From Oscillatoriaceae cyanobacterium M7585_C2015_266 (GTDB lineage Bacteria > Cyanobacteriota > Cyanobacteriia > Cyanobacteriales > Oscillatoriaceae), in NCBI GenBank assembly GCA_015295835.1, contig DVEG01000029.1, positions 1 through 64,000 of the forward strand: a stretch of 64,000 nucleotides of DNA, in the 5' to 3' direction. A model generated the notes under the pieces. It had not been told where the DNA came from, did not search any database, and was given only the letters and a program-made list of their open reading frames with translations. This document shows, piece by piece, positions 59,840-61,549 of this stretch; the first letter of the stretch is position 1; each line of letters begins with the position of its first letter. A program made the position numbers and the translations under genes.

Positions 59840-59970
59840 TCACTAAATTGCTGTTCACAACCGCTATATATTATGAGCATATTATGAGCGCTCGCCATCA
59901 GTAACCTTTACTATTTGTAACAACTTTGGCTATAATAGATAAGATTTATTGCGTGAAAGAAGGGGGAGCA

Positions 59971-60426
59971 ATGAAAAAAAAATATCCTGCGATCGCAACA
60001 ATAGCATTACTGCTGAGCATAACAATCTCAGTATCTGCTTCTGCCAAAGCACGCTAGGAATTAGAGCAAACCGTATTCGCCAAACTAGAAGCCGCTAAAG
60101 AAGCTTTAAAACAGGAAGGGGGCTTAAAGCTAGTATTTCCACCCACTGTAGGAAAATTAACCCAAGGAGCCTCAGCACCCTACACCATGCAGCTCAATGC
60201 CGGAACTGAGTATACAATTGTAGCGCTTTGCGATGAAGATTGTTCGTATATCAACTTAAAGATCACAGATATGTATGGCAATGAAATAGCCGCTGACATG
60301 AAAGATGACAACTATCCCCTGATTACCCTGACACCTACTTGGACGGGAAAGTTTCAGGCGAATGCGATCATACAAAACTGCTCTGCAGATTTTTGTTATT
60401 TCGGTTTAGGAGTTTTCAGCAAATAG
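59971..60426 (+). pseudogene. Exported-protein gene interrupted by one in-frame TAG
   Basis: From ATG 59971 (with AGGGGGAG just before it) the frame encodes a signal peptide of 28 residues (KKKYPAIATIALLLSITISV, then SASAKAR) and meets TAG at 60055-60057. It continues in the same frame for 122 residues without further stops (ELEQTVFAKLEAAKEALKQ; LNAGTEYTIVALCDEDCSYI; CSADFCYFGLGVFSK). The four Cys in the second half fit a secreted disulfide-containing domain similar in style to pre-peptidase C-terminal domains. The best explanation is a recent nonsense mutation; sequencing error is the alternative. TAG is a normal stop in this genome, so recoding is unlikely. An internal restart at ATG 60187 would lack the signal peptide. 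Confidence 0.65.
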
Positions 60427-60565: not shown

Positions 60566-61549
60566 ATGAAAAAACTATTAAGCCTAAGTTCGATTTTTCT
60601 TCTGCTCACAGGATACGGAATCGCTCATGGGCGTATAGCCGCAAGCTTACACCCGCCCGCCAATGTAAAACAATTATCTGATGATGCAACAAAAGCTTCC
60701 TCTGCCGCCCAACCAAAAATAGAATTATTGCAAGCTGGAGCTGAGCCGAGACGGGTGTTGCGCTTTCAACCAGCAGTAAACGCGAGGCAAACTACTACCA
60801 TGAAAATGAAAATGAATATAGAAATGGCTATTGACAACCAGCCTTTGCCTCAAATGACGCTGCCTACTACCGTAACAACTATCGAAACAACAGTCACTCG
60901 CGTGGATGCCAACGGGGATATTCACTATCAATTTCATTATCCAAATATTGATGTAATTAACGATGAAAGCGCCCCACCAGAATCATTGCAGATAATGCGA
61001 TATTCTATTAAAAACATGCTCGCAGGTTTGCGCGGAGAGGGCATAATAGATAGCCGAGGCTATAATAAAGGGGCAAAAATAATCCCTCCTGAAGGCAGTA
61101 AAATGCCAAAAGAATTATTAGAGGGAATATCAAATTATATAGGACAAATATCTTTTCCATTGCCAGATGAACCGATTGGAATAGGTGCTCAGTGGAGCGT
61201 TTCTGACGAGCTAAATGTGAATGGCATAAATGTAAACCAAATAGCCAAATATGAACTGATGAATTTAGAAAATAATGCCGCGACACTCAAGGTTAACATT
61301 CAACAACAAGCCTCTCCCCAACAACAAAAATTAAATGCAGGGTTGCCTGACGGAGTAGAAACAACTTTAAAATCTTACAGTGGGCAGGGTGAGGGAGAAG
61401 CAAAGATACGTCTGGATGAATTGATGCCGATTTTCTCCACCGTAGCCATGCGTTCTGCTTTGGAAGTGACTACAAAATATTCTGGTAGTTTGCAAGTAGT
61501 GCCGATGAGTGTGAATTATTTAATGGAAGTGAATTTAGAATCGAAGTAA
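60566..61549 (+). CDS. Exported protein, possibly DUF6263-like
   Basis: A 327-residue protein with a signal peptide (about 1-22, KKLLSLSSIFLLLTGYGIAH). The mature part is beta-rich. It begins IELLQAGAEPRRVLRFQP and contains alternating Thr/Met strands (TTTMKMKMNIEMAID), a Gly-Pro-rich middle, and LPDEPIGIGAQWSVSDEL. The pattern (dequalifying intact enzymes, no catalytic motif) resembles the DUF6263 secreted family, but I am not certain. ATG 60566 has GAAAGGGA at 60553-60560; an earlier TTG at 60551 is not a likely start. It converges on the ABC exporter gene, with a hairpin between the stops. Confidence 0.75.
   Translation: MKKLLSLSSIFLLLTGYGIAHGRIAASLHPPANVKQLSDDATKASSAAQPKIELLQAGAEPRRVLRFQPAVNARQTTTMKMKMNIEMAIDNQPLPQMTLPTTVTTIETTVTRVDANGDIHYQFHYPNIDVINDESAPPESLQIMRYSIKNMLAGLRGEGIIDSRGYNKGAKIIPPEGSKMPKELLEGISNYIGQISFPLPDEPIGIGAQWSVSDELNVNGINVNQIAKYELMNLENNAATLKVNIQQQASPQQQKLNAGLPDGVETTLKSYSGQGEGEAKIRLDELMPIFSTVAMRSALEVTTKYSGSLQVVPMSVNYLMEVNLESK

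Follow-up and report, generated by a model that had tools for sequence, protein, structure and literature searches.

A gene for a putative exported protein of PPC-like fold is interrupted by one amber codon after its signal peptide in an Oscillatoriaceae cyanobacterium

Introduction

The stretch of DNA analysed here (64,000 nucleotides, referred to below as the window) contains, at positions 59971 to 60426, a reading frame that starts in the manner of an exported protein, meets an amber codon, and then continues without interruption for the length of a small domain. What is the status of this locus? It may be a gene that has lost its function by mutation, an intact gene misread in a draft assembly, a gene whose amber codon is decoded as an amino acid, or two neighbouring genes that have been mistaken for one.

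Results

One frame, parted by a single codon

All of the elements of the locus lie on the forward strand. A G-rich ribosome-binding site, GGGGGAG (59962 to 59968), precedes an ATG at 59971, which opens 28 codons (59971 to 60054) for a signal peptide and the first mature residues; this segment aligns with the N-termini of related proteins. Codon 29 is the in-frame amber, TAG (60055 to 60057). The 122 codons of the mature protein follow (60058 to 60423) and end in the natural terminator, which is again TAG (60424 to 60426). The translation of 59971 to 60426 in this one shared frame is MKKKYPAIATIALLLSITISVSASAKAR, stop, 122 residues, stop. The sequence-only reading had proposed that a ribosome-binding site, a signal peptide and a 122-codon continuation are parted only by the TAG at 60055-60057, with no second stop or frameshift in the gene, and the sequence and its translation bear this out. 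It had also placed the TAG exactly at the start of the mature protein, which is approximately correct. The signal peptide has a Lys-rich start, a hydrophobic core and an ASA/AKA cleavage motif, and the likely AxA cleavage sites, assigned by eye, end at residue 25 (ASA) or 27 (AKA), whereas the amber is codon 29.

Coding character was evaluated with a hexamer score whose training set was the contig's long ORFs. After the amber this score is +0.59 in the frame of the gene, whereas the two alternative forward frames score -0.45 and -0.41. It is +0.28 for the signal-peptide part and, with a larger training set, just 0.01 for the final 25 codons ahead of the amber. The stretch after the amber is real coding sequence, beyond what would arise by chance.

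The predicted protein and its fold

An AlphaFold2 model of the 122 residues (mean pLDDT 95.3, pTM 0.87) consists of an N-terminal helix (residues 2-21) and a beta-sandwich (residues 30-121) like that of the pre-peptidase C-terminal (PPC) domain. When the model was compared with the PDB using Foldseek, the best matches were to the subtilases Tk-SP, SubHal and KP-43, in what we take to be their C-terminal beta domain. Next came p24 GOLD domains and, among others, a PPC domain from a collagenase, with other unrelated beta-sandwiches lower in the list. The E-value was 1.2e-05 for a subtilase and 5.9e-04 for the collagenase PPC domain, with TM-scores of about 0.6. At the level of sequence, Pfam PF04151 is matched at E 0.01 or better by 7 of the 25 members of the alignment, the lowest E-value being 8.7e-06. 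The amber gene's own protein gives no match to this family at E 0.01 or at E 1; its sole Pfam line is DUF2436, below the cut-off at E 0.04. NCBIfam has no family for the protein, and no solved structure was found in a search by sequence.

On the strength of the model, the product would be a small exported or secreted protein with a PPC-like beta-sandwich. Like the PPC domain (PF04151), this would be a small beta-sandwich on an exported protein. Unlike the PPC domain, it is the only domain of its protein, preceded by a signal peptide and a short helix and joined to no peptidase, and its family has two invariant pairs of cysteines. These four cysteines, at residues 58, 62, 108 and 113 of the 122, are kept in the amber gene, as are all of the other family-invariant columns of the alignment.

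The relatives are uninterrupted

The protein encoded after the amber has matches in 17 of the 100 genomes searched when its own is included, and in 16 of the 99 others. The matches in these other genomes are 24-41% identical to it, and the relatives compared overall 22-41%. The 20 other matches in this search are all free of internal stops and lie in open frames of 150-190 aa. A closer profile applied to the GTDB species set identified 38 loci, four of them from genomes also present in the 100-genome search. Twenty are cyanobacterial by record title and the remainder come mostly from proteobacterial, gemmatimonad and bacteroidete bins; all 38 are open through the match. Among plasmid records there is a single relative, in Stanieria cyanosphaera PCC 7437 (33.3% identical), and single-protein scans of genome and viral contigs confirmed none. 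Roseofilum, Planktothricoides, Stanieria and Arthrospira are among the sources of the GTDB and plasmid matches taken together. Three of the relatives (L072, L076 and L099) carry at least two copies of the PPC-like domain in one frame.

Common to the relatives are a hydrophobic start, either a signal peptide or a stretch resembling one, a short helix and the beta-sandwich with its four invariant cysteines. A strongly hydrophobic stretch, defined as a 10-residue mean hydropathy of 1.7 or more, lies upstream of the domain in 36 of the 38 GTDB loci. The two exceptions are a locus whose frame runs into the contig edge (L065) and one in a tandem array (L075). In three others (L074, L086 and L090) the hydrophobic stretch is followed by a long linker and resembles a membrane anchor more.

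This layout bears on the notion that two genes lie here one after the other, the first a short ORF resembling a signal peptide and the second a gene whose product would begin at 60187. That position is the first possible restart, since no in-frame ATG, GTG or TTG occurs between the amber and 60187. A protein begun there would lack the helix and the earliest strands of the modelled fold, and the relatives read in one frame from the upstream hydrophobic segment through the region before 60187. The sequence-only reading had named homologues that start only at 60187 as the finding that would count against it, and the relatives instead begin upstream, at the signal peptide or hydrophobic stretch. 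We therefore rejected the downstream start, and regard the two-gene explanation as extremely improbable.

The amber gene is accessory, with no match by protein or by DNA in any of the 7 other genomes of its family. Its own genome (98.48% complete) gave one match at E 0.001 in a profile search, and this match has one TAG inside; a second, intact copy was not detected by that search.

Which residue, if any, does the amber replace? The sequence-only reading had suggested that an alignment with intact homologues would tell. The column was obtained, but it is variable and mostly polar, and names no single residue with confidence. Of 48 aligned rows, 46 have a residue at this position (N 20, S 6, T 6, D 4, G 4, E 2, Q 2, R 1 and K 1) and two have a gap. 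These rows include at least five repeats of one protein, from overlapping searches, and leave out the gene's own row, two L019 rows that repeat L007, and 10 of the 38 GTDB loci, which have tandem copies, long linkers or unclear starts. Thus the amber sits in a poorly conserved, variable linker between the signal peptide and the helix, and therefore its position at the start of the mature protein looks incidental. As judged from the alignment, its location would require no functional reading.

TAG is an ordinary terminator in this genome

It is conceivable that the amber is suppressed, or is a site of programmed readthrough, so that a fraction of the ribosomes decode UAG as an amino acid and complete the exported protein, with the codon acting as a throttle. 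Such an arrangement would accord with the intact open frame and conserved residues past the amber, with a variable linker that tolerates many residues, and with the presence in the same genome of a second amber-interrupted gene of exported type. The genome-wide data point the other way. In a 931 kb sample, TAG ends 150 of 596 mechanically called ORFs of at least 150 aa, compared with 297 for TAA and 149 for TGA, and the amber gene itself terminates in TAG. Release factor 1 is intact, with the prfA model scoring 534.7 bits against a cut-off of 423.25. ARAGORN assigns the anticodon CTA to none of the 37 tRNAs found, in a set that is incomplete (150 of 231 candidates scored) and has no Ile or Asn tRNAs. 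Among relatives, internal stops are absent from both the 20 other matches and the 38 GTDB loci. As in cases of stop-codon reassignment or amber suppression, an amber lies within a frame that is otherwise conserved; unlike in those cases, TAG is here a common and normal terminator, the genome encodes release factor 1, and a CTA tRNA was not found in the incomplete tRNA set. The suggestion in the sequence-only reading that the stop is suppressed is thus not upheld, and general amber suppression was rejected because of terminator use, release factor 1 and the tRNAs of that set. We consider readthrough at this codon very unlikely. If it did occur, a cyanobacterium would here be using a stop codon to throttle a secreted protein, which would be unusual.

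Other genes with single stops

Two scans for in-frame stops place the amber in a wider setting. The first and stricter, over 531 kb, returned 18 stops, and missed the amber at 60055 because the signal-peptide side scores low. The second covered 931 kb, used looser score limits and required the first start codon to lie at least 12 codons downstream. It yielded 20 candidates, of which three are supported by relatives and three lie inside other ORFs; the remaining 14 looked, on inspection by eye, like the ends or starts of genes or were unclear. The three supported stops are a lower bound for the 931 kb, in a count that covers in-frame stops.

One of the three is the amber at 60055; the other two were also among the stops from the first scan. 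The gene at C20:60028-60342 (L119:10028-10342) is of exported type and has a TAG at C20:60178 (L119:10178). Of 39 relatives, 34 have a match to it. The 7 other genomes of the family all encode an uninterrupted version, 71-79% identical, in which Leu occupies the position of the stop. The gene at C33:106666-108144 (L063:2666-4144) is TPR-methyltransferase-like and has a TGA at C33:107881, where 7 of 7 aligned relatives have Arg; it is matched in 16 of the 39 relatives. Both labels derive from reading the sequences and not from a family search. In addition, an in-frame TAG between coding-like stretches at C20:50940 (L119:940) was seen in the first scan only, and was excluded from the second by the start rule. 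Such lesions occur among relatives too: a GUN4-like match in the relative genome G004 holds one TAA.

These findings add to the case against readthrough. The relatives' residues differ between the two ambers, being variable and mostly polar at 60055 and invariably Leu at C20:60178, and a like lesion at C33:107881 involves TGA. The different stops and the different replaced residues therefore argue against a special decoding rule. Judging by these sequences, the lesion at 60055 would not be unusual for its genome, in which at least two more genes have one in-frame stop and intact relatives. Either nonsense pseudogenes are scattered in this strain or base errors are scattered in its draft.

Discussion

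Mutation or base-call error

The second of these possibilities, applied to our locus, is that the gene is intact in the strain and that the TAG exists only in the draft, through a base-call or assembly error. The assembly is in 35 contigs, the rest of the gene is intact with its conserved residues kept, and the TAG at C20:60178, in a gene so widely matched and everywhere else uninterrupted in the family, could be an error as well. Against this, confirmed stops are few, three in 931 kb, and are of two kinds (TAG and TGA), and the assembly has a completeness of 98.48% and a contamination of 0.29%. We regard such an error as possible, although rather unlikely.

We think it probable that a single nonsense substitution after the signal peptide has inactivated the gene in this strain. 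Translation would then initiate normally and halt at codon 29, and the outcome would be a signal-peptide fragment without the folded domain. A restart inside the gene would give at most 79 residues, lacking a signal peptide. The frame, the stop, the family, the uninterrupted relatives and the lack of a second detected copy are observed; that the strain truly has the TAG, and that it makes no full-length protein, is our inference. In having one premature stop in an otherwise open gene, uninterrupted relatives, an accessory distribution and a single detected copy, the amber gene is like ordinary nonsense pseudogenes of bacteria. It differs from them in showing no other decay, and this leaves room for a base-call error.

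The sequence-only reading had offered a mutation or a sequencing error, and both fit; it had also called the event recent, and this part is harder to sustain. We calculated the effect of neutral drift on 150 sense codons, allowing substitutions only and giving each transition double the probability of each transversion. The chance that no second stop has yet arisen would be 50% at about 0.035 neutral substitutions per site, falling to 5% at about 0.15. Since a second stop is often absent even after drift, a single stop is weak evidence that the event is recent. The kept invariant cysteines also point, weakly, toward a recent event. Taken together, the intact invariant columns and the absence of a second stop or frameshift are as compatible with a very recent event, or with an error, as with a loss of greater age.

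A further variant is that the amber is a leaky or reversible switch, with low-level readthrough or frequent reversion in the population, such that a few cells secrete the domain. We find this highly improbable. If it were true, the strain would have another such case in the amber-interrupted gene of exported type at C20:60178.

On balance this appears to be an ordinary interrupted gene, for which a nonsense allele is the most likely explanation, a sequencing error is possible and a suppressed codon is very unlikely. The significance is small outside annotation. There, the proper entry for the locus is an interrupted gene from a recognisable family of exported PPC-fold proteins, and to annotate it as a 79-residue gene starting at 60187 would be to give it the wrong label.

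Genome setting

A promoter scan gave two promoter-like sites, compared with 2.0 in shuffled sequences, and a terminator-like site was not found. The next gene downstream (60569-61549) encodes a DUF6263-like protein (E 1.2e-07). None of the 7 other genomes of the family has a match to it, and together with the amber gene it may form a strain-specific stretch. At the loci of the GUN4-like neighbour gene in six relatives (L163-L168), relatives of the amber gene and of the DUF6263 gene were not seen within flanks of about 1.5 kb. The genome itself is a draft of 3.98 Mb at 98.48% completeness, much smaller than the 6.4-8.6 Mb of the six other genomes of the family with a completeness of at least 95%, and its small size may accompany gene loss.
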